A stretch of DNA of 32,933 nt from Candidatus Obscuribacterales bacterium (GTDB taxonomy: Bacteria > Cyanobacteriota > Vampirovibrionia > Obscuribacterales > Obscuribacteraceae). Positions 6,432-31,875 of the stretch are shown here, piece after piece. Under the pieces are notes generated by a model that saw only the letters and a program-made list of their open reading frames with translations, did no database searches and was not told the origin of the DNA. Position 1 is the first letter of the stretch. Each line of letters begins with the position of its first letter. The position numbers and the translations under genes were made by a program. The stretch is from contig JAGVKB010000027.1 in assembly GCA_020050835.1 (NCBI GenBank), positions 1 to 32,933 on the forward strand. Reading direction: 5' to 3'.

Positions 6432-6965
6432 CTCCATCCTCCTTCTGATTCAAAGTCGACAGACCGCGCGCCCAAAGCCGGATTCCGGCGACACAAGACG
6501 AGCGCGGCGAAACGCAAACGAACCCCGAATCAGCAGATTGCTGCTAATTCAAAAAGGCTCAATTACGTCCGAAGCGCTTGTGTTGTGTTTCTTGGGCTGG
6601 TTCTATCGAAGACGCTTGTGTTTTAAACTTGTCTCGACCATAGAGAATCGGCCGAACAGATCACAAGCTCTTCGCTCAGAAGCCAGTCAAGTAGCGGGAG
6701 CGGGCGGTTTTGTTAACTTTTTCTTTAGAATTGAGGCGTGGAGCGGGACTTTAGAGTCAGCCGACCCGAAAAAAGGGGTAGTTGGCCGAACGAAGCCGCT
6801 ATGTCAAGAACTCCAACTGGTGGGGTAAGTACGCAATTCAGCGAACTTTAACCGCTAGCACACATGCGCAAGCGCATTGCGGCAAGCGCTCTTCAGCGCC
6901 TAACAATCGCCTTGTCCTGACTGAGATGCAGTCTGGATTGAGACCACCGGCGCCAAGCAAGCACC
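6432..6965. other. Intergenic region without gene
   Basis: About 530 nt. It becomes AT-rich around 6690-6740 (a TTTTGTTAACTTTTTCTTTAG stretch begins near 6708). A short near-repeat, CGAAG(a)CGCTTGTGTT, occurs near 6571 and again near 6609. ATGCGC-AA-GCGCAT forms a small palindrome at 6864-6877. Presumably it holds the promoter of the 273-aa gene and the 3' end of the 79-aa gene's transcript. Open frames here lack ribosome binding sites and look random. Confidence 0.5.
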
Positions 6966-7229: not shown

Positions 7230-7658
7230 TCAGTTTTGGGTGGATTTCCAGCGGCGCGGCAACTTGTGAATACGGGCGTACTGGAAGTCCTTGTCGAGGA
7301 AATAGAGGGTTTGCCAGCTGTTGAGCAAAATGAAGAGCACCGCGACCATCAGCATGCCGTCGGTAACTCCAGGCGCTCGAAAAGAAAAATTGGCTGGATA
7401 AAAGGAGAGCAGCGGAAAGCCGCAAGCGAAATTGAATCCGCACAAGGTCAGGGTCAAACCCAGCTTCGAGTCGGGGCGCAGGCTGTCGACGAAGTATCCA
7501 CTGGCCATCACCATCGGGCCCATTTCAATCAGAGCGATCGTCCGCAGGACATCCGATTGCGCCGCGGACCAGGAGATAGCCACAATTCCCGCCAGCGCAG
7601 CCGACATTGCCAGAGCAATTCTGAGCAGGAAAGTCCAGGGTACAGCTTCATACCACAT
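7230..7658 (-). CDS. Membrane protein, 142 aa
   Basis: Four probable membrane spans (around 8-28, 40-56, 66-88 and 98-118), with a basic, Trp-containing C-terminus (LPRRWKSTQN). The start at 7658 has AAAGGTGA upstream. The gene directly precedes the 79-aa membrane protein (24-nt gap) and follows a hairpin at 7700-7740 that separates it from the thioredoxin-fold gene. Family not recognised. Confidence 0.7.
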   Translation of the reverse strand: MWYEAVPWTFLLRIALAMSAALAGIVAISWSAAQSDVLRTIALIEMGPMVMASGYFVDSLRPDSKLGLTLTLCGFNFACGFPLLSFYPANFSFRAPGVTDGMLMVAVLFILLNSWQTLYFLDKDFQYARIHKLPRRWKSTQN

Positions 7659-13637: not shown

Positions 13638-16229
13638 TTAGCCGCCGCAGCCGCCGCCGCCACAACCGCCGCCACCACAGCTGCTACCGCCGCCGCAACT
13701 GCTGCCTGAGCTGCAACTGCTGCCCGAGCTGCCACTGCCGCTGCTGCAGCCGCTGCCGCTATCGGACGACCGCGAGGACAGATACGACCCGGCGATGTAT
13801 CCGACCAGCATGCCGTCGATCGCCGAGAAGTTGCCGCCGTCGGCCGAGGACTCGGCCGCGGCCAGCTTGTCCTTGGGACAGCCATGCCGGCGCGCGTCGT
13901 CGAGCTTTTTCTGCGCTGCGTCGTAGCTCTTCTTATCGGCTTCCATGCTGACTCCGAGCTGAACCAGCGCCGCGTCGACCCGATCGGCTTGCGATGCCGC
14001 GCTCCGCCAATCGGGCTTGTCCCTGCTTACGACTGTCGCGAACGCATCGAGCAGCACCAGAGCCGCCACCCGTTGCTGCTTGGTTGCTTCCGAAGTACCC
14101 TTGGGCTGGGCTTTCGTCAGCTGCTCACGCAAAGCCGATTCCGCCTCACGCGTTTTGGCGACTCGGTTGACCAGACCCTGCAGCTCGGTGGACTTCTGAA
14201 CCACCGTCATGCGGTAGGCCGCAGCTGTCTGGACGAATTGTCGAGCCCGTTGCAGGCTACGCTCGGCCGCCTTGAAACGCTGCTCCAAGTAAAACTGAGC
14301 ACATTGCCTCAGCTGCTGGCCGGCATCGACGGTCGCCCTGATCGCCTGCTCGTACCCCTTGTCCAGGTCGTCAAACGACTCGTGGATGAATCGCCCCTTG
14401 AGCGCTTCCAAGTCGCGGTCCGCCAACTTCAGCTCGCCGGGCAGGTAAGCGTCCAGCTTCGACTCCAGGCCGAGCACAGCCTCATCCGAAAGGCCGCCCT
14501 TCTCGACTGCTTGACGGGCATTGTCGTAGTCGGCCAGCCCCTGCTTGCCGAGCTCGCATTGCTCGACAGCCTGGTTGACCAGCTGATCGGCCTCGGCGGT
14601 GCGACCGGCTTTGAGAGCCGCGCGCCCCTCCTTCAACCGGTCTCCGGCCAGCCGAATGTGCAGATCGGGATCGAAGCCATCCTCGCGAACTGTGGCTGAC
14701 ACACTCCTTACGGAGACGTCGAGGTCGCCCACGACAGCACCTGGATAACTCAGAACAATCTGGCCTGAACGCCGCTCATCGACAACCTTTCGAAGAGCCG
14801 CCAGTTGGGCTCCGGCGTCCGGTAGCAGCTTGCTCGCCCGCAGTCCGGCTTCGAGGCGGTCGCCAAGCCAGTTCATGGCATCCAGAATGGCCGCATACTC
14901 GACCACACCGGCGATCGGATCAGCCGCCAGCTTCGCCTGACATGCCGCGAGACGGCCGGCCAGGTTGTCGTCGGCGCTCTTGAACGGCTCGAAGTTGAGC
15001 GCTTCGGCCAGATACTTCTCCTTGCGAGCTTGATGCTCGGCCAGCGAACGCTCGCAGGCTTGAGCAGCCGACAGCTTCTCAGCCAGCGTCGCGTTGGCCT
15101 GCTTCAGTCTGCCGACGCCGTTCTTGACGTAGTCGCGCAGAGTCGGCACGGTCACCGGCTGGCCAGTCACGAAGTTGCGACCGCCTTCGGCACCACCGAC
15201 GGTGACGTGTCCGGTGGCGATCATCCGCGCCGCTTCCCCGCTGCCGAACCAGCTGGACAGCGATTGCTCGGCCTTTTGCAGCTGTTCGCCCCAGAGCGCA
15301 AAGGCGGTCTGCTGATCTGCATACTGCGCGCGCAGGGCAGAGAGCTGATCCTTGGTCGTTCCGGTTTTTGCGATGGCATCGCCTGGCCGCACGCCGGCCA
15401 CCAACTCCGGATCGAGCTTTTTGAGCTCGGACTTGGCCTGTTCGAGTTCGCGCTCGAGCACATCGATCTCTCGGCGACCTTTGCTCTTGCGTTCCTGTTC
15501 ATTGCTGAACACCGTCGAGACAATGGCTACTAAGCCGAGCACCGCCGCTCCGAGAACAAACACGATTAGAATGGCGATCAGCGCGCCTCCGCCCGAAGAC
15601 TGTCCGGAACCGCCGCCGGTGCCGGGCGACGATGGCGAGGGCTGGTTCTGCGATTCCTTGTAGCCGGCGATCTCTTCGTTGACGTGGTCGACTACCGCCA
15701 GGATGAATCGCTCGTGGTCCGGCTGAGAGACCTTCATGTGCTCGTAGACCGCCCGCATGACCGGACCTTGCATCGAGTCGAAACGGTTGCCGGTCAGCCC
15801 CATCTTCTTCAGAGCGGGGCCGGCTTCCGCCGCGGTCTTGCCTTTGAATTCGGTGCCCTTCTGGCGAACATGGACGATCAGCAGGTGGCGATCGCGGTCG
15901 AAGCCAGGCTCATTCCACCAGGCTTTCTTGATGTCGATCAGCACCGGCAAGGCCATGTTTTTGTTGGAGTCAGCATCGTCGCCCTGCTCGGCGAAGACGA
16001 CATAAACGGTGATCCCTTGCTGCTCCGCCTTCTCCTTGAGCTTCTTTTCCAGGTCGGAAAAGACGATCGGTCGAGTCGGATGCGCGCTCGACTGCGGATC
16101 GACATAAACCACCTTGTTGCGATCGAAGCCGGGGCGATAAGTACCGGCAGCCATCGCCGAGCCGCTGGACAACGAGCAGAATACGACTGCAACCATCGTT
16201 GTCAGAATAACCTTGATCCAGCGAGACAT
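13638..16229 (-). CDS. TPM-domain membrane protein with Cys/Gly tail, 863 aa
   Basis: Order of parts: signal peptide (1-28, cleavage near AMAA); TPM domain (about 35-190; TLP18.3/Psb32/MOLO-1 family, beta/alpha fold with ITVYVVFAEQG and HLLIVHVRQKG strands); Pro/Ser/Gly linker (195-214); one membrane span (215-240); a long charged helical region of more than 500 residues with several coiled-coil stretches; and a final low-complexity tail of Ser, Gly and Cys ending GGGGCGGGGCGG. The N-terminal TPM domain should be outside the membrane and the long helical part inside. TPM proteins of plastids are linked to photosystem repair; in bacteria the role is mostly unknown. The start MSRWIKV has GGGGGA upstream. 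The unusual feature is the very long cytoplasmic coiled coil between TPM and Cys/Gly tail. Confidence 0.75.
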   Translation of the reverse strand: MSRWIKVILTTMVAVVFCSLSSGSAMAAGTYRPGFDRNKVVYVDPQSSAHPTRPIVFSDLEKKLKEKAEQQGITVYVVFAEQGDDADSNKNMALPVLIDIKKAWWNEPGFDRDRHLLIVHVRQKGTEFKGKTAAEAGPALKKMGLTGNRFDSMQGPVMRAVYEHMKVSQPDHERFILAVVDHVNEEIAGYKESQNQPSPSSPGTGGGSGQSSGGGALIAILIVFVLGAAVLGLVAIVSTVFSNEQERKSKGRREIDVLERELEQAKSELKKLDPELVAGVRPGDAIAKTGTTKDQLSALRAQYADQQTAFALWGEQLQKAEQSLSSWFGSGEAARMIATGHVTVGGAEGGRNFVTGQPVTVPTLRDYVKNGVGRLKQANATLAEKLSAAQACERSLAEHQARKEKYLAEALNFEPFKSADDNLAGRLAACQAKLAADPIAGVVEYAAILDAMNWLGDRLEAGLRASKLLPDAGAQLAALRKVVDERRSGQIVLSYPGAVVGDLDVSVRSVSATVREDGFDPDLHIRLAGDRLKEGRAALKAGRTAEADQLVNQAVEQCELGKQGLADYDNARQAVEKGGLSDEAVLGLESKLDAYLPGELKLADRDLEALKGRFIHESFDDLDKGYEQAIRATVDAGQQLRQCAQFYLEQRFKAAERSLQRARQFVQTAAAYRMTVVQKSTELQGLVNRVAKTREAESALREQLTKAQPKGTSEATKQQRVAALVLLDAFATVVSRDKPDWRSAASQADRVDAALVQLGVSMEADKKSYDAAQKKLDDARRHGCPKDKLAAAESSADGGNFSAIDGMLVGYIAGSYLSSRSSDSGSGCSSGSGSSGSSCSSGSSCGGGSSCGGGGCGGGGCGG

Positions 16230-16365
16230 TTGATGTCCCCCTTCATACTGTGGACAAATGCGCTCCATTGCCGGAGCCTCCTTGTGAAACGACGCGGTTT
16301 GTTACGAGGCTAATGTGCATCGGCGAGCGGCAAAACCCGACCGACTCACACGCCTTGATGCTTGC

Positions 16366-16995
16366 TCAGACCGGACCTTGCTTCAACCGCTCCGCCGCCT
16401 GCCCGATTAGAGCAAACAGCGCGCGGTCATCGGCAGCGGAGGCAACCGGAGCTGCGCTCAACTCCTTGCCGACAGCCTGATTTGGCTTGCTCTGACGTCG
16501 CCCCCAGATATCCTCAGGAGGCTCGCCGAAGATGCCGGCGTAGAGGTCGAGCGTACGGACGTAGAGTCCGGAAAACTTCTCGTCTTCCTGCTGGCCTCCG
16601 GTGGAAGGCTGGTGATGAATCAGCCGTCCCAGCGTTTTGACGCAGAGCTCCTGCCAGTAAGAACGCGTATAGAGCAGATGCAAGTGCCACGCCTCGTCGA
16701 CGCGCAGCGAAGGCGTCACCATCTCCGGTGACACCATCGAGAGAAAAAGGAATTTGCGGTATTCCTCGATCACGCGCAATGCGAAGTCGTGCGTCCACTC
16801 CTGCTCTTTGGCAAGGCGCATCGAGAGTTGGAATTGAGCGGACGGATCATCGATTGGGAAGGCAGCCAGCTTTTCCCAGAGCGCGGCATGTGCAAGCGGA
16901 ATCTTGAAGCGAGGCGCATCAGAGCCACGCTCCGGTCGACCAGCATCCGCTTGAGCGGGCTTGCGCTCTCGAGCAGACGGTCTCAACCAAAACAT
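16366..16995 (-). CDS. GRDP-like (DUF1399-type) WHxH protein, 209 aa
   Basis: The diagnostic part is VDEAWHLHLLYTRSYW (99-114), followed by LCVKTLGRLIHHQP (117-130), Y...TL..Y (145-152) and FGEPPEDIW (156-164). This matches the bacterial 'WH.H...T..Y...C...G...HH.P' pattern of glycine-rich-domain-containing-protein-like families (plant GRDP/DUF1399 relatives). The histidines may form a metal site; no enzymatic function is established. The start at 16995 has GGAG 5 nt upstream; ten extra codons upstream are not used. It lies between the S49 peptidase and TPM-protein genes on the same strand. In other bacteria, as I recall it, such proteins sit beside membrane proteins with Cys/Gly-rich tails, which fits this context. 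Confidence 0.7.
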   Translation of the reverse strand: MFWLRPSARERKPAQADAGRPERGSDAPRFKIPLAHAALWEKLAAFPIDDPSAQFQLSMRLAKEQEWTHDFALRVIEEYRKFLFLSMVSPEMVTPSLRVDEAWHLHLLYTRSYWQELCVKTLGRLIHHQPSTGGQQEDEKFSGLYVRTLDLYAGIFGEPPEDIWGRRQSKPNQAVGKELSAAPVASAADDRALFALIGQAAERLKQGPV

Positions 16996-17094
16996 AATTC
17001 TCCACCTCCAGCTTTTCAAAGTCACCTGTACACGGTAGGCGGCGAGCAGGGCGGCACCGCAGACGGTACCACCCCGCTTCGCACGCCCGTACGC

Positions 17095-19470: not shown

Positions 19471-20229
19471 ATGAGCAAAACGATTGAAATCGGTTGGATG
19501 GGAGGAACTTACAACCCGCCCCACGACCTGCACATGCTTGGCGGACAGTCGGTCGTCGAGCAACTCGACATGGAAAAGCTCTTGATGGGACCGAACGGCA
19601 TCCCACCACACAAAAGCAAGGCCGGCATCTTAGATGGACCGGTCCGCCTGCACCTGCTTCAACTCTCGATTGAGGGCAACACCAGGCTGGAAGCCTCCTC
19701 GCTCGAGCTCGATCGCTCGGCGCGCACAGGCGAGCCTTCCTTCACCGTCGACACCCTGAAGGAGCTCACCGAGCACTTCGACACCGTCTACGGCCCGGGA
19801 TGCATTCGCGGCAGTGGTCGGTGGCGGCTCAACTGCGTGGTCGGCGAGGACGTCATCCCGGATTTCCGCCACTGGCGCGACGCCGAGGGCATCAAGAAGC
19901 TGGCGCGCCTGGTGATCATTCCGCGCTATTCCGGAGTCGATGCCGCCAAAGAGGAGAAATGGCGCGAGCAGCTGGCCGGCGCCGAAATCCTCATCACGCG
20001 CGGTCACGCCGCACTGGATGTCTCCAGCACCTGGATCCGCCAGATGATCAAGGCCGGAAGCCAGGCCTGGCGATACCTCGTCCGTCCGAAGGTCTACGAC
20101 TACATCGTGACCAACGGGCTGCTATTGGACCAGGCCGACCCCGCGCAGAAAACGCCGCCTGCCGCCAGCGCTCCGGTTGTCGTCGTACCGCCTGCTGCTC
20201 CGGCCAGCGCCAACGAGCCACAGTCGTGA
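19471..20229 (+). CDS. nadD: Nicotinate-nucleotide adenylyltransferase
   Basis: Transfers AMP from ATP to nicotinate mononucleotide, giving deamido-NAD. Seen: nucleotidyltransferase signature GGTYNPPHDLH (11-21) with the HxxH pair His18/His21; PSFTVDTL (89-96), matching the family's S.T.dTL; a GEDVIPDFRHW segment (125-135) like 'GaD....W'; and the second signature SSTWIR (185-190), equivalent to ISST.IR. After residue 220 there is a Pro/Ala/Val-rich tail of about 30 residues not typical of NadD. The start at 19471 has GGAGG at 8-nt spacing. First gene of the plus-strand NAD cassette; the product is the substrate of the NadE encoded three genes on. NMN adenylyltransferase activity cannot be excluded from sequence. 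Confidence 0.85.
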   Translation: MSKTIEIGWMGGTYNPPHDLHMLGGQSVVEQLDMEKLLMGPNGIPPHKSKAGILDGPVRLHLLQLSIEGNTRLEASSLELDRSARTGEPSFTVDTLKELTEHFDTVYGPGCIRGSGRWRLNCVVGEDVIPDFRHWRDAEGIKKLARLVIIPRYSGVDAAKEEKWREQLAGAEILITRGHAALDVSSTWIRQMIKAGSQAWRYLVRPKVYDYIVTNGLLLDQADPAQKTPPAASAPVVVVPPAAPASANEPQS

Positions 20230-20256
20230 GCACTCCTCCCGTTTCCGCCAGCCAAG

Positions 20257-20276
20257 CACGCTCGCCACGAAGCGTG
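20257..20276 (+). repeat. Small hairpin between nadD and prs
   Basis: CACGCT (20257-20262) pairs with AGCGTG (20271-20276); an alternative CCACG/CGTGG stem overlaps it. It is weaker than the other intergenic hairpins of this block. Confidence 0.35.
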
Positions 20277-20345
20277 GGGCCGGTGGAATTCTCATTGTTC
20301 AAACTCACACCATGCCATGAAACCAGGCAAAGGAAGGGATAAGAG

Positions 20346-21278
20346 ATGAGCACGAAAAGAAGGCCGCTGGTGTTCCATACCGCCAGCTATCAGTACATGG
20401 CCGAAGCGCTGGTGGCGACCGGTCACTTCCTGCACGGACAGCTGGAGCAGCGACCATTCCCGGATGGGGAGAGCTATCACCGGCTCTTGAGCCCGATCAA
20501 CCAGCGCGACATCATCCTGGTCGGCGGCACCGTCACGGATGCCGACACGCTCGACCTGTTCGACCTCGGCTGTGCGCTTTCCAAGTACGGCGCGCGCACG
20601 CTCTCGATGGTGCTGCCCTACTTCGGCTACTCCACCATGGAGCGGGCGGTAAAGATGGGCGAGGTGGTGAAAGCCAAGACGCGCGCCCGCCTTCTGTCCG
20701 GCATTCCGCAGGCTGTCGAGGGCAACACCGTCTACCTGCTGGACCTCCACAGCGAAGGCATCCCGCACTACTTCGAAGGGCGCACCACCACCCGCCACGT
20801 CTACTGCAAGGATCTGATCGCCAAGCTCGCTCGCCGCCTGGCTGGCAAACGCAACTTCGTGCTCGGCTCGACGGACGCCGGGCGCGCCAAGTGGGTCGAG
20901 TCGCTGGCCAGCGACATGGGAGTGACGCCGGCGATCATTCTCAAACGGCGAATCAGCGCCACCGAAACCAAGGTGACCGGCGTCTCGGCCGATGTCGACG
21001 GTGAGACGGTCGTCATGTACGACGACATGATCCGCACCGGCGGCACCGCCATGAAGGCCGCTCAGAAGTACCGCGAGTTCGGAGCAGCGAAGGTTTTCCT
21101 GGTAGCCACGCACGGCGTCCTGCCCGGCGGTGCTCTGGACAAGCTGACCGACAGCGGTCTCTTCAACGGGATCGCCTGCACCGACACTCATCCGCGCGCG
21201 GTCGCCTTGCAAGGCGCCAAGCTGACGGTCGAGCCGGTGTCCGAGCTGCTCGCTTCCGAGTTGCGGACGAAACTGTAG
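20346..21278 (+). CDS. prs: Ribose-phosphate pyrophosphokinase (PRPP synthetase)
   Basis: Makes PRPP from ribose-5-phosphate and ATP; PRPP is the co-substrate of the phosphoribosyltransferase encoded next. Length 310 aa is typical. Seen: FPDGESY (38-44), DLHSEGIPHYF (133-143, the DLH.....FF site), KRR (200-202, flexible-loop Lys/Arg), and the PRPP-binding loop DDMIRTGGT (226-234). One deviation: the usual PYARQDRK ATP-site region reads PYFGYSTMERA (91-101), so it is a divergent Prs of the kind I associate with phages and atypical bacteria. Ribosome binding site GGAAGGG. It lies between nadD and pncB, which supports a dedicated role in NAD synthesis. Confidence 0.85.
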   Translation: MSTKRRPLVFHTASYQYMAEALVATGHFLHGQLEQRPFPDGESYHRLLSPINQRDIILVGGTVTDADTLDLFDLGCALSKYGARTLSMVLPYFGYSTMERAVKMGEVVKAKTRARLLSGIPQAVEGNTVYLLDLHSEGIPHYFEGRTTTRHVYCKDLIAKLARRLAGKRNFVLGSTDAGRAKWVESLASDMGVTPAIILKRRISATETKVTGVSADVDGETVVMYDDMIRTGGTAMKAAQKYREFGAAKVFLVATHGVLPGGALDKLTDSGLFNGIACTDTHPRAVALQGAKLTVEPVSELLASELRTKL

Positions 21279-21408
21279 ACCCTATCCAGGCTGCAGGCTT
21301 CTGATCGCCACTACCGGCAGTATCATCCTGCAGTCCGTTGAAAGTATTCGGTACGCCAAGCGCAAATCGAATGCTGACGACCGGATTCTCTCTTTGAACT
21401 TACACCCT

Positions 21409-21448
21409 GCGCCGGCACACCTGCTCTTGCGAGCAGGTGTGCCGGCGC
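21409..21448 (+). repeat. 18-bp perfect hairpin upstream of pncB
   Basis: GCGCCGGCACACCTGCTC (21409-21426) pairs perfectly with its complement at 21431-21448 around the loop TTGC. It ends 22 nt before the start codon and close to the ribosome binding site GAAGGAG. No U-tract follows, so intrinsic termination is not expected; a processing or stability element is more likely. Longest perfect stem found in the window. Confidence 0.6.
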
Positions 21449-21470
21449 GCATGTCGAAGGAGACAGAACC

Positions 21471-22991
21471 ATGGGTAATGATTTACAGCCAAACGACCGC
21501 TTTGCCGCCAAGCGCGCGGCCATGATCGACGAACTGTTCGCCAAGCTCTTCCTGTTGGGCGGCTGGGTAGGCGCGACCGACACTTACAAGCGCACCATGT
21601 TCGCCGCATTCGCCGATATCGCCACGGCGCACGCCGGCTACAGCCTGACCATGCGCCGCGGCTTGCCCGAGCCGGGCGCAGGCGACCAGCTGGTGATGGC
21701 CGGACACGAAGCGATGCTGGCCCAGTGGTTCCACCGCCCGCTCAAGCGGTCGGACAACGAGCTGGCTCGACTCTGGTACAGTCAGCACTCCAACGTGAAA
21801 GCTTTCCCGCACGAGCTGTGGGACGCCATCCACGCCAGCCAGACCGGCGAGGACATTCATCTGCCGGTGGACATCTGGGGATTCCCAGGCGGGCAGACCT
21901 TCCTGAAGGGCGTGCCTTGCCTGTCCTTCGAGGGCATGGGCGGCGCCATCTCCTATCTGGAACCGGCGATGTGCCGGTACTTCGCGCCGGTCATCTTCGC
22001 CACCAAGGCCCGCTTGATGAAAGAAGCCAGTCCGCGCGATGCCGAGTTCGGTCTGCGAGCCGCTCCGGTCGAGGTCTGCAACTTGATCCTGCTGCTGGCG
22101 CGTTACGTCGGCGGCGGCGGCAAGCTCACCTCGAATGACACCGCCGAGTTTCTCTTCCCCGAACTCTTCGCCTCCATCGGCACGATCGGTCACGAGCTGA
22201 TGTGCTCCAACCAGTCGTTCGATAAGGCGCTCGGTCTGGCCGAACGCGAGATGATGGACCGCTTCGTCAGCAAGATGGGCTCGGCATCGCTCCTGTGCGA
22301 CCTGGTCGACGCTGAAACCGTCGGACTGGAAAACGCGCTGTGGGTGATCAAGAACCATCCGGAGACGGACCGGGTCGGCATTCGCGTCGACTCGGGAAAC
22401 ATCGCCGAGCAGTGCGTGCTTTACTTCAACCGCATCAAGGCGCTCGGCATCAAGCCGCGCACGATCGTGTTCGAGGACGAAGTGGAGCCCGAGAAGGTCA
22501 AGGAGGTCTACCGGCATTTCCGGGCAGCTACCGGCGAAGAGCCCACCATGCTGTTTCCCGGTGCCGGCGGTTACTGGTGGCGTCTGGTTCACCGGGACAC
22601 GCTCTCGACCGCCTTCAAGCGCAGCGCCACCGGCGCCAACCCGAACGTCAAGTTCTCCAACAGCCCGGGCAAGGAGTCGCTGGGCGGCTATCTGCGCGTC
22701 TACGGCAAGGATGACAGCCTGGTAATCGCCGACAAGTCCGAGACTGTCGACGGCGAGCCGCTGTTCGTCAAGCTCGTGGAGAACGGGCGGGTAGTCTACG
22801 ACGAAAGTTACCAGCAACAAGCGGCGCGCACCGAGCGCACCTGGAGCAAGTACACGAAAGTGACGCTTTCTCCTCTGGTGCGGCGATACAAGGACAAGTT
22901 CAACGCCATGCGGGACCACGAGATCGCCGAGGCCAAGGCTCGATTGACCGCTGGACAAAGCGAATCTTCGCCAGCCCAACCGGCAGCCTGA
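21471..22991 (+). CDS. pncB: Nicotinate phosphoribosyltransferase-like enzyme
   Basis: Converts nicotinate and PRPP to nicotinate mononucleotide. The 506-aa protein has the NAPRTase order: AEFGLRAAP (191-199, the E.GLR nicotinate/phosphate site), GGGGKLTSNDTA (214-225, like GGF.GTSN..A), GTIGHELM (237-244) with the histidine that is phosphorylated in the family (His241), LVDAETV (278-284, like LVDTY), and GIRVDSGN (303-310, the conserved RxDSGD). It is longer and divergent compared with classical PncB (about 400 aa). Nicotinamide phosphoribosyltransferase (NadV/NAMPT) was considered but its G.G..HL/GTDT motifs are absent. The neighbouring nicotinamidase and NadD agree with nicotinate as substrate. 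The C-terminal 60 residues are basic, then Ser/Ala/Pro-rich. Start preceded by GAAGGAG. Confidence 0.8.
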   Translation: MGNDLQPNDRFAAKRAAMIDELFAKLFLLGGWVGATDTYKRTMFAAFADIATAHAGYSLTMRRGLPEPGAGDQLVMAGHEAMLAQWFHRPLKRSDNELARLWYSQHSNVKAFPHELWDAIHASQTGEDIHLPVDIWGFPGGQTFLKGVPCLSFEGMGGAISYLEPAMCRYFAPVIFATKARLMKEASPRDAEFGLRAAPVEVCNLILLLARYVGGGGKLTSNDTAEFLFPELFASIGTIGHELMCSNQSFDKALGLAEREMMDRFVSKMGSASLLCDLVDAETVGLENALWVIKNHPETDRVGIRVDSGNIAEQCVLYFNRIKALGIKPRTIVFEDEVEPEKVKEVYRHFRAATGEEPTMLFPGAGGYWWRLVHRDTLSTAFKRSATGANPNVKFSNSPGKESLGGYLRVYGKDDSLVIADKSETVDGEPLFVKLVENGRVVYDESYQQQAARTERTWSKYTKVTLSPLVRRYKDKFNAMRDHEIAEAKARLTAGQSESSPAQPAA

Positions 22992-23056
22992 CGTTCTACT
23001 CGGCACCGCCTGCGGGCGATGTCCGATTGCTTTCGACTGAACAGATAGAGACTACA

Positions 23057-23078
23057 ACCGGCGGTCTAGGCCGCCGGT
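23057..23078 (+). repeat. Hairpin upstream of nadE
   Basis: ACCGGCGG (23057-23064) pairs perfectly with CCGCCGGT (23071-23078), loop TCTAGG, immediately before the AGGAGG ribosome binding site of nadE. Confidence 0.5.
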
Positions 23079-23098
23079 CCTCTAACAGGAGGTTCGAC

Positions 23099-25138
23099 AT
23101 GTCTGCAAACAAAGCTGCCCGGCGGCGAGCCAAGGTGCCGCAGACGAACTACGGTTTCGTTCGCGTGGCCACGGCTTCGCCCAAGATCAAGGTAGCCGAC
23201 TGCCAGTACAACGCCGCGCAGGTAATCGACGTGATGGCTGAGGCCGGAAAAGAGGGAGCGACCGTGCTCGTCTTTCCGGAGCTCAACCTGACCGGCTACA
23301 CCTGCGCCGATCTCTTCCACCAGCGGCCGCTGCAGCAGGGTGCGCTCGACGCGCTCAAAACAGTCACGGCCGCATCAGCAAAATGGTTCGCCGGCGTCGT
23401 CTTCGTCGGCATCCCGCTGGTGGTGGACGAACAGCTCTTCAACTGCGCCGTGGCAATCTGCCGCGGACAGATTCTCGGTGTGGTGCCCAAGCTGTTCCCG
23501 CCGACCTACAAGGAGTTCTACGAGGCACGCTGGTTTCGCAGCGGAGCCGCGGCGATCAGTCGGGAGGTGGTGCTAAACGGTCAAACCGTACCGTTCGGCA
23601 CCGACCTGCTCTTCTGCGCCACCGACGTGGAAGACCTGGTTATCGGCGCCGAAATCTGCGAAGACCTCTGGACGGCCGTGCCGCCCAGCTCGATGCATGC
23701 GCTGCACGGAGCGACAGTGCTCGTCAACTTGTCGGCCAGCAACGAGCTGATCGGTAAAGCGAGCTATCGCCGCCAGCTGGTCAGCAACCAGTCCGCGCGC
23801 TGCATCGCCGCCTATCTCTACAGCTCCTGCGGCGTGCACGAGTCGACCACCGATGTTGTCTTCGGCGGGCATTGCATGATCGCTGAAAACGGCGCGATGC
23901 TGGCCGAGTCGAAGCGCTTCCGGCGCGACAACGTGCTGTTGCTGGCTGACATAGACCTGGAGCGGATGCACATCGATCGCGTGCGCACCAACAGCTTCGG
24001 CAACTCGCTGCTCTACCTGTCGCTCAAGCGAGAGTACCGTCGCATCCCGTTTGCCGCCGGCAAGCTGGTGGCGCCGGCTCGCCTGCTGCGCGAGATCGAA
24101 GCGCATCCGTTCGTGCCGCGCGGCGAAAGCCAGCTGCGCGAACGTTGCGAAGAGATCTTCAACATCCAGGTGGCGGCGCTGGCCAAGCGGCTGGAACACG
24201 TCAACTCCACGCACGTGACTGTCGGCGTATCCGGCGGGCTCGACTCGACGCTCGCGCTTTTGGTGATGTGCAAGGTGGCGGACCTGATCGGCTGGGAGCG
24301 CAGCCGGATTCATGCCTACACCATGCCGGGCTTCGGCACCACCAAGCGCACCAAGCGCAACGCTCATGCGCTGATGGAGCAACTCGGAGTCACCGTCAAA
24401 GAGGTGGACATCCGCAAGATGTGCATCGAAGAGATGGTGGCGGTCGGTCACAAGCCGTTCGGCATCGATCTGACCGGCCTGAGCCTCGACCAGCTCATGG
24501 AGCAACTGGTCAATCTGCCGCCTGATTGCAAAGACCTGGCGTTCGAGAACGTGCAGGCCAGGATGCGCACGCTCATCCTGATGAACGCCGGTTTCACGGT
24601 CGGCACCGGTGACCTCTCCGAACTCATTCTCGGCTGGTGCACCTACAACGCCGACCACATGAGCGGCTACAACCCGAATGCCAGCATTCCCAAGACTCTG
24701 GTGAAATTCCTGGTCCGCTGGGCTGCCGGCAACGAGTTCGAAGGTCCGGTCAGGGACACTCTGATGGACATCTTCAACACGGAGATTTCGCCCGAGCTCT
24801 TGCCCACCACGAAGGACGGGCAGATCGCGCAGAAGACGGAGTCGGTCGTCGGTCCCTACGAACTGCACGACTTCTTCATCTACTACGTGCTCCGCTTCGG
24901 GATGTCACCGGAAAAGATCCTCTACCTGGCATCACAAGCGAAGTTCGACGCGGCCTACTCGGACGAGACGATTCGCCGGTGGCTGAAGGTAATGATCACT
25001 CGTTTCTTCAGCCAGCAGTTCAAGCGCTCCTGCCTGCCGGACGGGCCCAAAGTCGGCTCGGTAAGCGTGTCGCCGCGCGGCGACCTCCGAATGCCGAGCG
25101 ATGCCCTGGCCACGCTCTGGCTGAAATGGGCTTCCTGA
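23099..25138 (+). CDS. nadE: Glutamine-dependent NAD+ synthetase
   Basis: Amidates deamido-NAD to NAD+ using glutamine and ATP. The 679-aa length and two-domain plan match the long glutamine-dependent type known from mycobacteria. Glutaminase (nitrilase-fold) domain: FPELNLTG with Glu61, VPKLFPPTYKEFYE with Lys131, GAEICEDLW with the nucleophile Cys187, so the Glu-Lys-Cys triad is intact. Synthetase domain: P-loop SGGLDS (378-383), MPGFGTTKRTKRNA, ENVQARMRT, GTGDLSELILGW and the C-terminal TTKDGQIAQKTE and YELHDFF stretches. The start at 23099 has AGGAGG at 6-nt spacing; 24 upstream codons are excluded. It is the last biosynthetic step of the cassette. Confidence 0.93.
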   Translation: MSANKAARRRAKVPQTNYGFVRVATASPKIKVADCQYNAAQVIDVMAEAGKEGATVLVFPELNLTGYTCADLFHQRPLQQGALDALKTVTAASAKWFAGVVFVGIPLVVDEQLFNCAVAICRGQILGVVPKLFPPTYKEFYEARWFRSGAAAISREVVLNGQTVPFGTDLLFCATDVEDLVIGAEICEDLWTAVPPSSMHALHGATVLVNLSASNELIGKASYRRQLVSNQSARCIAAYLYSSCGVHESTTDVVFGGHCMIAENGAMLAESKRFRRDNVLLLADIDLERMHIDRVRTNSFGNSLLYLSLKREYRRIPFAAGKLVAPARLLREIEAHPFVPRGESQLRERCEEIFNIQVAALAKRLEHVNSTHVTVGVSGGLDSTLALLVMCKVADLIGWERSRIHAYTMPGFGTTKRTKRNAHALMEQLGVTVKEVDIRKMCIEEMVAVGHKPFGIDLTGLSLDQLMEQLVNLPPDCKDLAFENVQARMRTLILMNAGFTVGTGDLSELILGWCTYNADHMSGYNPNASIPKTLVKFLVRWAAGNEFEGPVRDTLMDIFNTEISPELLPTTKDGQIAQKTESVVGPYELHDFFIYYVLRFGMSPEKILYLASQAKFDAAYSDETIRRWLKVMITRFFSQQFKRSCLPDGPKVGSVSVSPRGDLRMPSDALATLWLKWAS

Positions 25139-25179
25139 CGTCTGCAGAAATGCGGGCAGATCGTCATCGCTGATGCTAT

Positions 25180-25197
25180 CTTCTTTCTCGGAAGAAG
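25180..25197 (+). repeat. Weak hairpin between nadE and pncA
   Basis: CTTCTT (25180-25185) pairs with AAGAAG (25192-25197), loop TCTCGG. Weak compared with the other intergenic stems. Confidence 0.25.
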
Positions 25198-25256
25198 GAA
25201 GCAAGTGTGAGACGAGGGTGAACGCGTCAAACCTTATCTCTTAAAAGGACGGGACC

Positions 25257-25928
25257 ATGACCACCATGCAGATCAAACGCGCCCTCGTGCGCGTCGATAT
25301 CCAGAACGGCTTCATGCCGCTGGACCCGGGCATCCCTGGCACCGGCGAACTACCGGTCGAAGGCGCTCCGGCGATTGTTGCCGCAGTCAATGCGCTCTCG
25401 CGCTCGCCGTTCTTCGACCTGGTAGTGGACACGCAGGACTACCACCCGGCGGACCACGGCAGCTTCTACACGATGCATCCCGGCAAGAGCGCCAACGAAG
25501 TCGTCGACCTGTTCGGGCTCAGTCAGATCCTCTGGAACCCGCATTGCCGGCAGAACACGCCTGGTTGCGAGTTCTATCCGACGCTCGACCGCTCGCGCGT
25601 CGCCAAGGTGATTCAGAAGGGCACGGACAAGACGGTCGACAGCTACAGCGGCTTCTGGGACAACGGCAAGCGCAAGTCGACCGGACTGGCCGACTACCTG
25701 GTGAGCGAGGGCGTCACCCACGTCTACGTCGTCGGCGTCACCCGTCCGTTCTGCCCGTCATGGACCGCCATCGACTCGGCCGAAGCAGGCTTCAAGACCT
25801 TCCTGGTGGTCGACGCCTGCAGCCTGCTCGAGCTTGCGCCGGGCGCCGGAGAGACAGACCTGCTCGCCCTCAGGGGTAAGCAGGTTGAAATCGTAAGCAG
25901 CTCCGACATCCTTGGACAAACTGCGTAA
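25257..25928 (+). CDS. pncA: Nicotinamidase (isochorismatase fold)
   Basis: Hydrolyses nicotinamide to nicotinate and ammonia, feeding the PncB-like enzyme. 223 aa. Seen: catalytic Asp14 in VDIQNGF (13-19), metal site DTQDYHPADHGSF (58-70) with Asp61, His63 and His67, catalytic Lys121 in IQKGTD, DSYSGF (128-133), and nucleophile Cys166 in VGVTRPFCPSW (159-169). The last motif normally reads GLATDYCV; here the cysteine is kept but flanking ATDY is replaced by TRPF, an unusual change near the active site that could alter rate or substrate choice. The C-terminus has ELAPGAGETDLLAL in place of the usual acidic helix. Start at 25257 has AAAAGGA upstream. Last gene of the NAD cassette. Confidence 0.85.
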   Translation: MTTMQIKRALVRVDIQNGFMPLDPGIPGTGELPVEGAPAIVAAVNALSRSPFFDLVVDTQDYHPADHGSFYTMHPGKSANEVVDLFGLSQILWNPHCRQNTPGCEFYPTLDRSRVAKVIQKGTDKTVDSYSGFWDNGKRKSTGLADYLVSEGVTHVYVVGVTRPFCPSWTAIDSAEAGFKTFLVVDACSLLELAPGAGETDLLALRGKQVEIVSSSDILGQTA

Positions 25929-26112: not shown

Positions 26113-26243
26113 CGACGCTGGAGCTTCGATTGCAAACAGCGCCACATTGCGTGCTCAAAACGGGCGAAGCCGACCGCTTCGCTCGAGACTTCAGCGGCAT
26201 GACACCAGCGCTGGTATCACGCCGCTGGCAGTGGAGACTACCC

Positions 26244-26924
26244 ATGAAGGACCACTTCTTCTTCGACCCGGGCGACGGCGACGAGCCCCGTCCGGAAACA
26301 TCAAGCGAAAGGCTCGAGCCGATCACCGCCGACCCAGGCTTCATTGCGCTGCTCTGGGCGCTCGGTCTGGCCTACCTGGCGACCTGCTGCCTGGAGGAAG
26401 TCGGACTTGTCCTGCGCTCTCGAACCTTGGTTGGCTTCGCCCGGCTCCTGATGGACGCCGGCGCGCTCGACACTCGCCTGCTCGACGGCGACCTCTGGCG
26501 ACCGCTGACCAATATCTTCCTGCATGCCGACTTCGGCCATCTGTTCGGCAACCTGGTCTGCCTGCTGCCGCTGGCGGCGATCGTCAGGCACTGGACGCGC
26601 TGGTGGCTGGGAGCGTTCATCGCCTGCGGAGTCGCCGGCGGTCTGCTGCAGATCATCATCCACCCCGACACCAGTGTGATCGGCGCCTCCGGCGGCATCT
26701 CCGGATTGGCAGGAGTCGGCATCGTCTGCGCCTGGCGCTTGATCAAGTCCGGCCAGCGGCTCTCGCTGGCGGTACCGGTGCTGGTGCTGATTGCCGTCTT
26801 CATCTACCTGCAATTCATCGGCGCCGCCTCCGGCAAGGCTCAGAACGTAGCCCACATGGCACACCTGGGCGGACTGCTTGCCGGACTGCTGATGGGCCGG
26901 TGTCTGCCGCTCAGGCTGCCCTGA
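26244..26924 (+). CDS. Rhomboid family intramembrane serine protease
   Basis: 226-aa membrane protein with about six spans. Rhomboid signatures: WRPLTNIFLHADFGHLFGNL (85-104) with His94, His99 and Asn103; GASGGISG (147-154) with catalytic Ser149; AHMAHLGG (203-210) with catalytic His207. The Ser/His dyad is intact, so it should be active, cutting transmembrane substrates near their lumenal edge. A charged N-terminal tail (1-30, acidic) precedes the first span. The start at 26244 has GGAG 8 nt upstream; a 38-codon-longer frame has no ribosome binding site. It sits after the NAD cassette on the same strand. Its natural substrate cannot be told. Confidence 0.9.
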   Translation: MKDHFFFDPGDGDEPRPETSSERLEPITADPGFIALLWALGLAYLATCCLEEVGLVLRSRTLVGFARLLMDAGALDTRLLDGDLWRPLTNIFLHADFGHLFGNLVCLLPLAAIVRHWTRWWLGAFIACGVAGGLLQIIIHPDTSVIGASGGISGLAGVGIVCAWRLIKSGQRLSLAVPVLVLIAVFIYLQFIGAASGKAQNVAHMAHLGGLLAGLLMGRCLPLRLP

Positions 26925-27028: not shown

Positions 27029-28075
27029 ATGAAAATCACGACTCTCTCGATTGTCGCGGGCAGCCTGGCTTGCCAGGCGAAATGCCCGTTCTGCGTTGCG
27101 CGCATGACGCCGAGCAACAACATGACCAACAAGCTGCCCGCGGTCAACTGGCGCAACTTCCGCAAGGCATGCCTGCTGGCCCAGTCCGGAGGCGCATCGA
27201 CGGTGCTGATCACCAGCAAGGGCGAACCGACGCTCTTTCCCGAGCAGGTGACGCAGTACCTCGAGCAGCTCTGGAGCTTCAACTTCCCGATCATCGAAAT
27301 GCAGACCAACGGCATCGCGATCGTCGAAGGGAAGGTGACCGAAGAGCAACTTCAGAAGTGGTACGAGCTCGGGCTGACTACTGTCGCCATCTCGATCGTC
27401 CACTACGACCCGGCCAAGAACCACGAGATCTACCTGCCTCACCGCAAACGCAAGGCTGCACCGCAGCTGTCGGCAGCTTGCACCCCCGGCGCCACCAACG
27501 GCGAGGCCAAGCCCGCCGGCACGCTGATCGACCTGCCGGTGCTGAACGGGCCGGCAGCAGAGACCACCTCACTCGGCGCCCAATTGACTGCGCGGGCGGC
27601 TGAAGGAGAAGCCGCAGGGTACATCGACCTGCCGAAGCTCTTCAAGCTGCTCCAGAAGCCGGAGCGCCGCTTCTCGATCCGGCTGACCTGCATCGCCGCC
27701 GACGGCTACATCGACAGCGGCGCCGAGCTCGAGAAGCTCCTGGCCTTCGCCGCCGCCAACCAGGTAGAGCAAGTCACCTTGACTCCGGTCACCAAGCCGT
27801 TCGACGCCGAGGACAAGGAGGCTTTCGACTGGGTGTCCAAGAACTTCCTGAAGCCGGATCAGCTGGCGAACATCAAGGAGTTTCTCGCCAAGAACGGCAA
27901 GATTGTCCGCCCAATGCCGCACGGAGCGGTAGTCTACGACGTCGGCGGGCAGAACCTTAACCTCTCCAACTGCTTGACCCGCGACTTGCAGCCGGATGAA
28001 GTTCGCAGCCTGATCTTTTTCCCGGACGGTCACGTCCGAACCAACTGGGACCTCGCCGGTTCGCTCCTGTTCTGA
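27029..28075 (+). CDS. Radical SAM protein of unknown substrate, 348 aa
   Basis: The iron-sulphur site CxxxCxxC is CQAKCPFC (Cys15, Cys19, Cys22), very close to the N-terminus. SKGEPTLF (63-70) takes the place of the GGEPT SAM-binding motif and EMQTNGI follows the next strand, both in the right order. An unusual insert of about 55 residues (around 150-195; Ala/Pro/Gly-rich, including TPGATNGEAKPAG) interrupts the barrel. The C-terminus has SNCLTRDL with one Cys, and FFPDGHVRTNWDLAG, which resembles the auxiliary part of molybdopterin- or peptide-modifying enzymes but lacks a Cys-rich SPASM cluster. The start at 27029 has AAGGAG 8 nt upstream. No precursor peptide gene is seen beside it. Substrate unknown. 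Confidence 0.8.
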   Translation: MKITTLSIVAGSLACQAKCPFCVARMTPSNNMTNKLPAVNWRNFRKACLLAQSGGASTVLITSKGEPTLFPEQVTQYLEQLWSFNFPIIEMQTNGIAIVEGKVTEEQLQKWYELGLTTVAISIVHYDPAKNHEIYLPHRKRKAAPQLSAACTPGATNGEAKPAGTLIDLPVLNGPAAETTSLGAQLTARAAEGEAAGYIDLPKLFKLLQKPERRFSIRLTCIAADGYIDSGAELEKLLAFAAANQVEQVTLTPVTKPFDAEDKEAFDWVSKNFLKPDQLANIKEFLAKNGKIVRPMPHGAVVYDVGGQNLNLSNCLTRDLQPDEVRSLIFFPDGHVRTNWDLAGSLLF

Positions 28076-28100: not shown

Positions 28101-28124
28101 GACCTGCTCCGATGGGAGCAGGTC
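28101..28124 (+). repeat. Hairpin between radical SAM and FtsH-like genes
   Basis: GACCTGCTCC (28101-28110) pairs perfectly with GGAGCAGGTC (28115-28124), loop GATG. It lies 26 nt after one stop codon and 41 nt before the next start. Confidence 0.5.
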
Positions 28125-28165
28125 CTGACTCCAGCCGCATCGTTACTGAAGGGAGTGATACAACC

Positions 28166-28675
28166 ATGACCTTTGCCCCATTGAAAGACGAGCAACGGCG
28201 ACGGATCGCTTGCCGCGAGGCAGGCGTATCGGTTGCCACCGTCAAACTCGCTACGCGCCGCGGACTCGTGCGCGTGCAGATCTACCCGAAATGTCGAGTG
28301 TTCGGGCAGACCGAATCACGCGCCAATCCGATCCAACGCCTCGCCAGCAAAGACGATCAGCTCGCCGACCTGTACATCGTGCTGGCCGGTCGCGCCGCCG
28401 AAGAGGTGCTCTTCGAGGACAAGTCTCCGCTGTCGGAGACGCACCTGCTCCAGGCCACGCGCATGGCGGAACTGCTTGCCACCAGATACGGTGTGAAAGC
28501 CAGCCCGGACGAGATCATCGCCCAGGCCTATGAATTCGTGAAGAAGTTCATCGAGCAGCACCGCGCAAGCGTGACTAACGTCGCCGAAGCGCTGCTTAAG
28601 CAAGGCGAACTCTCGGCCGAACAGGTCGAGGCGATCATCGACCGCACGCCGAGCGTGCTGCCGCCGACCACCTGA
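28166..28675 (+). CDS. FtsH peptidase-domain-like pseudoenzyme, 169 aa
   Basis: Resembles only the C-terminal M41 peptidase part of FtsH, with no AAA+ ATPase and no membrane span. The helical core LAGRAAEEVLF (73-83) and LQATRMAELLATRYGV (95-110) match the FtsH pattern 'laGRaAEe..f' and '..AT..A..M...yGm'. The zinc motif HEAGH is replaced by CREAGV (16-21): both His ligands are gone (Arg17, Val21), the Glu is kept, and the third ligand Asp is His93. It should not be an active zinc peptidase. It could bind substrates or FtsH itself as a decoy or adaptor; this is inference. Start at 28166, ribosome binding site GAAGGGAG. The neighbours are a radical SAM protein and a DUF4013 membrane protein. 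Confidence 0.75.
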   Translation: MTFAPLKDEQRRRIACREAGVSVATVKLATRRGLVRVQIYPKCRVFGQTESRANPIQRLASKDDQLADLYIVLAGRAAEEVLFEDKSPLSETHLLQATRMAELLATRYGVKASPDEIIAQAYEFVKKFIEQHRASVTNVAEALLKQGELSAEQVEAIIDRTPSVLPPTT

Positions 28676-28765: not shown

Positions 28766-29500
28766 GTGAAATTCAAGCTCTTCAGCCTGCAACTCAAGAG
28801 AGCGTTCAAGCTACCCTGGCAGGGCGACTCGCGCTGGCAGCGCTTGCTCGTCGGAGCGCTTCTCTGGGCGCTACCGATGGTAGGCGCCGCAATTACCCCC
28901 TGGGTCGGCGCCGCGCTGCTGCTGCCGACGGTGATTCTGACCGGAGGCTACTGCCTGCGCGTCATGCGCTACGAAGTGTCGGCGCCGGCCGAACAACCGC
29001 CGACCGAGCTGCCGCCCTGGACTGACTGGCCGAACCTAGTTCGAGACGGAATATGGCTAGTCCTGCTGGCGCTGTCCTATCTGGCTGGTCTAGCCGGAGT
29101 GATGTTTCTCGCATGGCTTGCCACCGGAACGTCGCTGCTCGATTTCAACCAGTTGGAGTCCGAATCGGCCGACTCCTTCGTCAACTTCCTGTTCATCTTT
29201 GTTGCGATACTGCTCATCTGTGAATACTTCCCGCTGATGGTCGCCCATATCGCCCGAACGGGAGACTTCAAAGCAGGCTACGACTACCGGTACATCCTGA
29301 AGCGGATTTTGAGCAACCACAGCGAATGCTATCAGGCCACGGCTGCCTCAATCCTGCTGCTGGAGCTTTCACTGCTGGCCATTATCGTGCTTCCGCTCCT
29401 GCCGCTGGCTGTCTTTGCCGCCCAGATGATATCAAGCAATCTCTGGGCTCAGGCTTACAAGTTTGTCCCCGAGAAGGACAGCACAGCTGCCCCCAAGTAG
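28766..29500 (+). CDS. DUF4013 family membrane protein, 244 aa
   Basis: Multi-span membrane protein. The DUF4013 hallmark is seen at residues 60-97: GGYCLRVMRYE, then ELPPWTDWPNLVRDG (a 'GG....R.......LP.W.dw..l..dG' pattern). About five hydrophobic segments: 27-42, 45-63, 97-118, 138-160 and 190-222. Function of the family unknown. The start is a GTG at 28766 with AAAGGAG 6 nt upstream. The TAG stop lies inside the loop-side of the hairpin at 29483-29509. No signal peptide. Confidence 0.8.
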   Translation: MKFKLFSLQLKRAFKLPWQGDSRWQRLLVGALLWALPMVGAAITPWVGAALLLPTVILTGGYCLRVMRYEVSAPAEQPPTELPPWTDWPNLVRDGIWLVLLALSYLAGLAGVMFLAWLATGTSLLDFNQLESESADSFVNFLFIFVAILLICEYFPLMVAHIARTGDFKAGYDYRYILKRILSNHSECYQATAASILLLELSLLAIIVLPLLPLAVFAAQMISSNLWAQAYKFVPEKDSTAAPK

Positions 29501-30696: not shown

Positions 30697-31875
30697 ATGC
30701 AGATCATGAATGGCATCCGGAAGCTGCGCAGCTTCGTCAAGCGGCTCGTTTCGGACCGCGTCGACAGTCGAGAGAAGTTTCGCGCCTGGAAGAAGCAAGC
30801 CGAAAACGAAGAGTTCATGGCCAGTTGCTTCGACTACAAGCGCGAAGGCGATATGCCCAAGGTTACCGCGTTGGTCGACCTGGACTTCCACCCGAGCCTC
30901 CCGCTCATCCTGCTCAACTACTCGAAGACCGCTCACAACACGCTGCACCGCTTCGGCGTTATGGGCTGGACCGAGCCGCTCCGGCTCTGTCGCGGCACCG
31001 TCTTCGACCGGCGGAGCACGCTGGTCGGTCTGCCCTTTCGCAAGTTCTTCAATTACGGCGAGCACCGCGAAACTCTCGCTCTGCCGGACGAGCCGTTCGA
31101 CGCCACCACCAAGCACGACGGGCATCTCGGCATCATCTTCTGGTACAAGGGCCAGCTGGTGCTCACCACCCGTGGTGTCTTTGCCAGCCGCTCCTCCAAA
31201 CTGGGGGCCGAGATGCTGGAGACAATCGCTCGGCGCGGCGACTGGCGGACGAACATGCCGCAGAACGTAACTGTGCTGGTGGAGATGATCCACCCCAATA
31301 CGAAGGTACACGTCGATTATGAGGGTCGCGAAGACTTCATCTTGATCGGCGCCTTCAACTGCCGCAACGGTCATGACTACAACTACCAGGAGCTCGGCTC
31401 GCTGGCGGATACGCTCCAAGTAGCCGTCGCCGAGCGCTGGACCGGCAACAACATCGCCGATCTCAAAAGACTGCTGGCAGACCTCTCAGTCAAGAACCGC
31501 GAGGGCTTCGTCGCCCGCTTCGCAAGCGGCTTGCGCGTCAAGTTCAAGTTCGCGGCTTACATCAACGAGATGGTTAAGGACAAACTGAAGGAGGCGCCTC
31601 ACCGCTACCTGATGATGCGGATGATGACTGGAACGCTCGACAAGATGACCGGCAATCTCGAAGGAGAGATCTATCTCGAGACCAGCCGGATGGTCGAAGC
31701 GCTGAAAGCCGCTCCCCAGAAAGGCGCCACTCGCCGACAACAGCTCGCCTACCTGCGCAGCATCGTGCCGGAAGAGCAATGCACTCCATACTACCGCACG
31801 GTTGCCGGTAAGTTTCTGACTTACCTGACCACCGGCGAAACCGACGAAAGCGTAGGCGAAGAAGACAGCGAGTAG
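30697..31875 (+). CDS. T4 Rnl1-type RNA ligase, 392 aa
   Basis: ATP-dependent RNA ligase, joining 3'-OH and 5'-phosphate RNA ends; T4 Rnl1 repairs tRNA cut by the host anticodon nuclease PrrC. Nucleotidyltransferase motifs in order: motif I KHDG (139-142, KxDG with adenylated Lys139); upstream CRGTVFD and LPFRKFFNYGEH (98-123), typical of the Rnl1 family; TVLVEMIHP (192-200) with Glu196; motif IV EGFVARF (269-275); motif V RVKFKF (280-285) with Lys282 and Lys284. Length is close to T4 Rnl1 (374 aa). The start at 30697 has GGAG 11 nt upstream. No polynucleotide kinase-phosphatase gene is visible in the window, though T4 Rnl1 needs one for some breaks. The C-terminus is acidic (TDESVGEEDSE). 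Confidence 0.85.
   Translation: MQIMNGIRKLRSFVKRLVSDRVDSREKFRAWKKQAENEEFMASCFDYKREGDMPKVTALVDLDFHPSLPLILLNYSKTAHNTLHRFGVMGWTEPLRLCRGTVFDRRSTLVGLPFRKFFNYGEHRETLALPDEPFDATTKHDGHLGIIFWYKGQLVLTTRGVFASRSSKLGAEMLETIARRGDWRTNMPQNVTVLVEMIHPNTKVHVDYEGREDFILIGAFNCRNGHDYNYQELGSLADTLQVAVAERWTGNNIADLKRLLADLSVKNREGFVARFASGLRVKFKFAAYINEMVKDKLKEAPHRYLMMRMMTGTLDKMTGNLEGEIYLETSRMVEALKAAPQKGATRRQQLAYLRSIVPEEQCTPYYRTVAGKFLTYLTTGETDESVGEEDSE

Follow-up and report, generated by a model that had tools for sequence, protein, structure and literature searches.

The window analysed here, a stretch of 32,933 bases that makes up the entire contig C54 of a 7.01-Mb MAG in 154 contigs, carries a full set of genes for the predicted conversion of nicotinamide to NAD+, together with a Prs gene. 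The source is an uncultured, non-photosynthetic relative of cyanobacteria (Melainabacteria). With a probability of roughly 0.7, we read the locus as an operon for Preiss-Handler NAD+ salvage that is accessory, lies on the chromosome and belongs to a family of Melainabacteria (probably Obscuribacteraceae). This reading draws directly on the identities of the genes by homology, their conserved order, the NadE-PncA fusions that relatives carry and the presence of another, standard set of NAD genes in this genome; the reactions, co-transcription, chromosomal placement in the window species and the role are what we infer. The observation made in a preliminary description of this DNA was confirmed, and its interpretation was partly supported. 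In what follows, G000 denotes the window's own genome, other G numbers denote genomes of the same family, and L numbers denote fetched neighbourhoods or contigs.

The five enzymes of the cassette

Five open reading frames lie on the plus strand between positions 19471 and 25928, and curated HMMs and matches to solved structures bore out the names proposed for them. NadD, nicotinate-nucleotide adenylyltransferase (19471..20229), scored 114.1 bits against TIGR00482 (cut-off 112.5) and resembles the solved NadD 8aih. It is followed by Prs, a divergent ribose-phosphate diphosphokinase (20346..21278; TIGR01251, 171.5 bits, cut-off 113), a nicotinate phosphoribosyltransferase (NAPRT; 21471..22991), the glutamine-dependent NAD+ synthetase NadE (23099..25138; NF002730, 870 bits, over the cut-off; 506 bits to the solved synthetase 3dla) and the nicotinamidase PncA (25257..25928). 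PncA fell slightly under its equivalog cut-off (NF008623, 142 bits against 174), despite which it aligned end to end with the solved nicotinamidase 2wt9 (145 bits). The wording "PncB-like" chosen earlier for the NAPRT was apt, as this protein scored only 73 bits against TIGR01513, below the cut-off of 297. By homology, genes for all four steps of the Preiss-Handler pathway lie side by side, PncA, NadD and NadE homologues together with a putative PncB, and no gene of other metabolism is mixed into 19471-25928.

The intergenic gaps in the cassette span 105-200 bases. A ribosome binding site for each gene had been described, and a Shine-Dalgarno-like sequence indeed precedes each of the five, one to a gap, with AGGAGG upstream of the NadE start at 23099. 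A hairpin of its own for each gene could not be upheld: terminator-like sites numbered 9, shuffled sequence gave 5.7 +/- 2.7, and no more than two of the sites (23013 and 25951) lay on the plus strand within gaps.

The position between NadD and Prs is filled in the family by three distinct types of NAPRT, one of which comprises relatives of the window protein. The occupant in L062 is of the TIGR01513 type (415 bits) and that in L056 of the TIGR01514 type (382 bits), both over the cut-off. A TSN motif, which we take to be the NAPRT form at the position where NAMPT has GTD, is kept across all three types in the alignment, as are histidine H241 and an R-DSG motif. Conservation of the slot and these shared motifs together support, rather than prove, nicotinate as the probable substrate of the PncB-like enzyme. 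Searched alone against solved structures, the window NAPRT gave E = 0.04-0.1 at best; the wider profile that we also used on solved structures contains true NAPRTs and hence is not independent evidence. An AlphaFold2 model built from 16 sequences was set aside (pLDDT 44). The window protein is 71-75% identical to sequences from Gemmataceae (Planctomycetota) and 58-66% identical to those of its own family, and in the tree its neighbour is the Gemmataceae group, at modest support (94/89). This greater closeness makes transfer of the NAPRT between phyla likely. The window type is widespread in Planctomycetota (L019-L032, mostly Gemmataceae), where it occurs near a NadE.

The cassette Prs is a paralogue in which the RQDR motif of the ATP site reads STMER. 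The standard Prs of the window genome reads GYGRQDRKAAGREAITAKL, with RQDR, whereas the cassette Prs proteins show GYSTMERA in the alignment, followed by conserved GE and AK. It is possible that the donor or substrate of the cassette enzyme is other than the usual one.

A family-wide operon and a second set of NAD genes

Neighbourhoods from about 20 further genomes, spread over many genera of the family, showed the order NadD-NAPRT-Prs-NadE-PncA or as much of it as the contig contains; Prs precedes NAPRT in the window only. As exceptions, NAPRT was not detected in L059, neither NAPRT nor Prs was detected in L057, and extra genes lie inside the cassette of L035. NadE and PncA form a single open reading frame in L036, L038, L056, L058, L061, L069, L070, L123, L134 and L135, a fusion that NCBIfam models confirmed in L036 and L056. 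L035 and L036 have an NAD kinase gene adjoining the operon, and L036, L060 and L063 have a NUDIX gene nearby. For L124, L125 and L130, NAD kinase was assigned with a local HMM of two sequences, whose L035 seed matches several NAD kinase models at scores under their cut-offs.

The preliminary description had compared the locus with phage NAD-repletion pathways and advised a search of plasmids and large phages. No match to the window NAPRT was found among the phage and plasmid records and viral contigs searched, and the cassette proved to be a family-wide operon, carried in the relatives by contigs of 237-805 kb. By analogy, the window species would also have it on the chromosome, although its own contig spans just 33 kb. 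We considered and discounted the possibility that this contig is chimeric or mis-binned, because relatives of its TPM-like, Prs, NAPRT, NadE, RNA ligase and radical-SAM genes were all found within the one family. The TPM-like protein (876 aa; 13638-16268, minus strand) has a C-terminal tail rich in Ser, Cys and Gly, and its closest relative (L120, G011:C36) lies 4-5 kb from the RNA ligase gene of G011.

The preliminary description had asked whether the host holds a second, standard set of NAD genes, and this is the case. The window genome encodes a standard NadE (554 aa) and a standard Prs (412 bits) on C4, NadD on C32 and C73, NadC on C17 and a NAPRT-Prs pair on C105, whose Prs belongs with the cassette type (54% identity). 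The cassette is therefore accessory in this genome. Both types of NadE are also present in at least G015, G016, G019, G054 and G055. The standard NadE of about 560 aa was not found in G006, G009, G011, G052 and others, which are incomplete assemblies and yielded only the cassette type; in such relatives the cassette is probably housekeeping. A host with the cassette as its only NAD genes, which would have counted against the preliminary description, is not what the window genome shows; in many relatives, the cassette NadE is the sole convincing one found. No convincing NadE match at all was obtained in G005, G040-G044, G046, G047, G008 and G001.

Two further features recur in the family. Single open reading frames with two NadD domains in tandem occur in L065 (433 aa, at 7360) and L130 (645 aa, at 6705), and also in G053, G057, G059, G061, G062, G004, G011, G012, G023 and others. 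Protein families c4 (about 380 aa) and c9 (about 270 aa), which have no Pfam or NCBIfam match and were not found in the window, recur as neighbours of both the RNA ligase and the cassette (L034:5531-6670 and 15909-17018, L056:2828-4897, L061:2799-4963 and L123).

RNA ligase and radical-SAM neighbours in bacteria and large viral contigs

An RNA ligase gene had been described as following the cassette; it does not do so directly and lies 4.8 kb further on, at 30697..31875, with its start assigned by the Shine-Dalgarno sequence. Between the two, all on the plus strand, are genes for a rhomboid-family membrane protease (26130..26924; PF01694, 77.7 bits), which is part of the same gene run, a radical-SAM protein (27029..28075; PF04055, supported by alignments, linkage and predicted fold), a protein resembling Peptidase M41, the FtsH protease domain (28112..28675; PF01434, 62.5 bits), and a DUF4013 membrane protein (28766..29500; PF13197, 59.9 bits). 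For the rhomboid, M41-like and DUF4013 genes, any link to NAD would be hypothetical.

The ligase carries the T4 Rnl1-type domain RNA_lig_T4_1 (PF09511, 57 bits, cut-off 28) and scored 29 bits against the equivalog TIGR02308, which requires 242. Close relatives were present in 10 genomes of the family, and 7 of these have the gene next to the cassette (G000, G004, G006, G009, G010, G052 and G053). Relatives of the radical-SAM protein were found in 15 genomes; in 10 the gene is close to the cassette, to NadD or to NAD kinase, with the linkage in G053 assigned by coordinates. Counted by genus, linkage was seen in 5 of 7 genera for the ligase and 6 of 9 for the radical-SAM protein, for which rough binomial estimates of ~1e-7 and ~1e-8, respectively, assume that genera are independent and that genes are placed at random, with the sets counted after looking. 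In genus g13, the radical-SAM gene lies apart from NAD genes, within a conserved run that by eye includes a ThiF/E1-like gene and long open reading frames (L127:5233-11354, L128:5307-11901 and L136:6237-12831).

An AlphaFold2 model of the radical-SAM protein, built from 24 sequences, had a pLDDT of 83 and a pTM of 0.81. The closest solved folds were viperins (Z ~21, rmsd 2.8 A over ~238 residues), with GDGT-MAS tied, and MoaA followed with a Z of 19.6. The likeness to viperin and MoaA is one of predicted fold; the window protein differs in its low identity (14-16%) and its linkage to NAD genes, and it is far under both model cut-offs. Against the curated viperin models it scored 20.6 bits (NF038283, cut-off 180) and 20.3 bits (PADLOC pVip), the latter weak match being all that the PADLOC defence search returned. 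The substrates of viperin and MoaA are nucleoside triphosphates, and on that account a nucleotide is a reasonable guess, and only that, for the substrate of the radical-SAM enzyme.

The radical-SAM family extends to viruses. The window protein itself had no match in INPHARED, and an alignment query retrieved relatives from 32 IMG/VR contigs of up to 435 kb. One of these, L144 (234 kb), carries in order PncA, radical SAM, NAPRT, NadD and NadE, with an RNA ligase (PF09414) further on; the enzymes are supported by Pfam, and the contig also has a terminase. The same order was seen in L154-L156. When NAPRT was used as the seed, 80 viral contigs were obtained (60 non-redundant), and within about 8 kb of the gene, local HMMs built from few seeds identified NadE in 36, PncA in 29, NadD in 13 and radical SAM in 13. 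All four pathway genes were present in 8 (L144:2071-8854, L154:7406-11584, L229, L182, L184, L226, L233 and L236, on IMG/VR contigs of 29-508 kb), three of which also have the radical-SAM gene (L144, L154 and L229) and two an RNA ligase (L144 and L154). NAPRT is annotated in some sequenced phages as well. Of 37 viral contigs checked, 12 had a terminase match, two of these under the cut-off; contigs with no terminase match are viral only by the IMG/VR call.

A phage connection was not seen for the window NAPRT and takes a different form, as large phages with Preiss-Handler cassettes of their own, some including a radical-SAM gene. These cassettes (L144, L154, L229, L182 and others) have PncA, NAPRT, NadD and NadE in common with the window, and differ in usually having no Prs within 8 kb, a short ammonia-type NadE, a TIGR01514-like NAPRT and an RNA ligase of PF09414 rather than PF09511. 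Only 7 of 27 radical-SAM viral contigs have NAPRT and most do not; the phage link is therefore partial. Several of the radical-SAM genes found from the NAPRT seed (120-140 bits) lack the motifs KGEPT or GQN and may represent another subfamily.

Proposed role and alternative readings

The enzymes would act in sequence, PncA deamidating nicotinamide to nicotinate, the cassette Prs making PRPP, the PncB-like enzyme joining nicotinate and PRPP to give NaMN, NadD forming NaAD, and NadE converting NaAD and glutamine to NAD+. Most likely, the cassette serves to re-synthesise NAD+ from nicotinamide freed by NAD-cleaving enzymes. The recurrent neighbours, namely the RNA ligase, the radical-SAM enzyme, NAD kinase and NUDIX, suggest, and do not show, a tie to RNA and nucleotide repair. 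Weighing against the salvage-operon reading are the score of the PncB-like protein, far below the NAPRT cut-offs, the altered ATP-site motif of Prs, the shortness of the window contig, and the gaps, each with a Shine-Dalgarno sequence, which fall short of proving a single transcript.

Published NAD-repletion pathways offer a comparison. NARP1 consists of Adps and Namat, and is found in phages and some bacteria (PMC12774641). The window resembles it in having adjacent Prs-like and PRTase-like genes, and may likewise rebuild NAD+ from nicotinamide, but uses a nicotinate route with PncA, NadD and NadE. The Prs-like/Nampt-like pair of phage Andreotti, which we infer to be NARP1 by kinship to phages named in that work, shows little similarity to the window proteins: Prs is 27% identical to its counterpart, and the PncB-like protein scored 28.9 bits against the Nampt-like partner and so is not a Namat-type Nampt homologue. 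The claim of a full set with its own Prs and enzymes unlike those of NARP1 stands. Phages with NadV and NadM or NadR also make NAD+ from nicotinamide with a PRTase and an adenylyltransferase, and have no PncA or NadE step (PMC9503650; PMC7824862); PncA and NadE are present in the window, which sets it outside the NadV-NadM/NadR definition (PMC9503650), and its locus is bacterial.

A nicotinate version of NARP1 could be envisaged, in which Prs acts as an ADP-ribose pyrophosphokinase of the Adps kind, NaAD arises directly from nicotinate and ADPR-pyrophosphate through the PncB-like enzyme, and NadE amidates the product. NARP1 does employ Prs-like and Nampt-like enzymes (PMC12774641), and the RQDR of standard Prs is absent from the cassette proteins; however, NadD would then be superfluous, Prs is over the TIGR01251 cut-off, the same Prs is paired with ordinary NAPRTs in other cassettes, and the kinship to the Andreotti enzymes is distant for Prs and almost nil for the partner. 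We consider this route highly improbable. A plainer alternative, rather unlikely but to be taken more seriously, is that the operon is simply the lineage's own housekeeping NAD salvage, with no special function under NAD+ depletion or in RNA repair, and that the genes for the RNA ligase and the radical-SAM protein adjoin it incidentally. Every step is indeed ordinary, and the relatives with only the cassette-type NadE fit such a view. Against it, both NadE types are kept in the window genome and at least five others, the ligase and radical-SAM genes are linked far more often than random placement would give, and some viral contigs likewise have the radical-SAM family linked to NAD genes. Set against both, an accessory salvage operon remains our preferred reading.

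It is a tentative further idea that bacteria and large phages share a Preiss-Handler NAD-repletion module that works alongside RNA ligation and a new radical-SAM enzyme, the substrate of which would be NAD(P) or a nucleotide related to it. If so, phages would gain a further route for rebuilding NAD+ against NAD+-depleting immunity, beside the published pathways. Two surveys of phage NAD systems describe NadV, NadM and NadR, and neither "NadE" nor "radical SAM" occurs in them (PMC9503650; PMC7824862); full Preiss-Handler cassettes in large viral contigs go unmentioned there, and we found no paper on phage Preiss-Handler cassettes in the open full-text literature.

The chemistry of the cassette is ordinary; what is new is how the genes of this known pathway are arranged in a bacterial genome. 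Compared with the Preiss-Handler pathway as known, the window adds a divergent Prs, an unusual NAPRT type and a second standard set, and relatives add NadE-PncA fusions. The part worth following is the conserved linkage to the RNA ligase and radical-SAM genes, partly common to large phages; the radical-SAM family beside NAD genes in bacteria and phages is a concrete, testable and unstudied enzyme. For the family itself, the dedicated divergent Prs, the second set and the conservation of the operon indicate that a poorly known lineage invests unusually in rebuilding NAD+.
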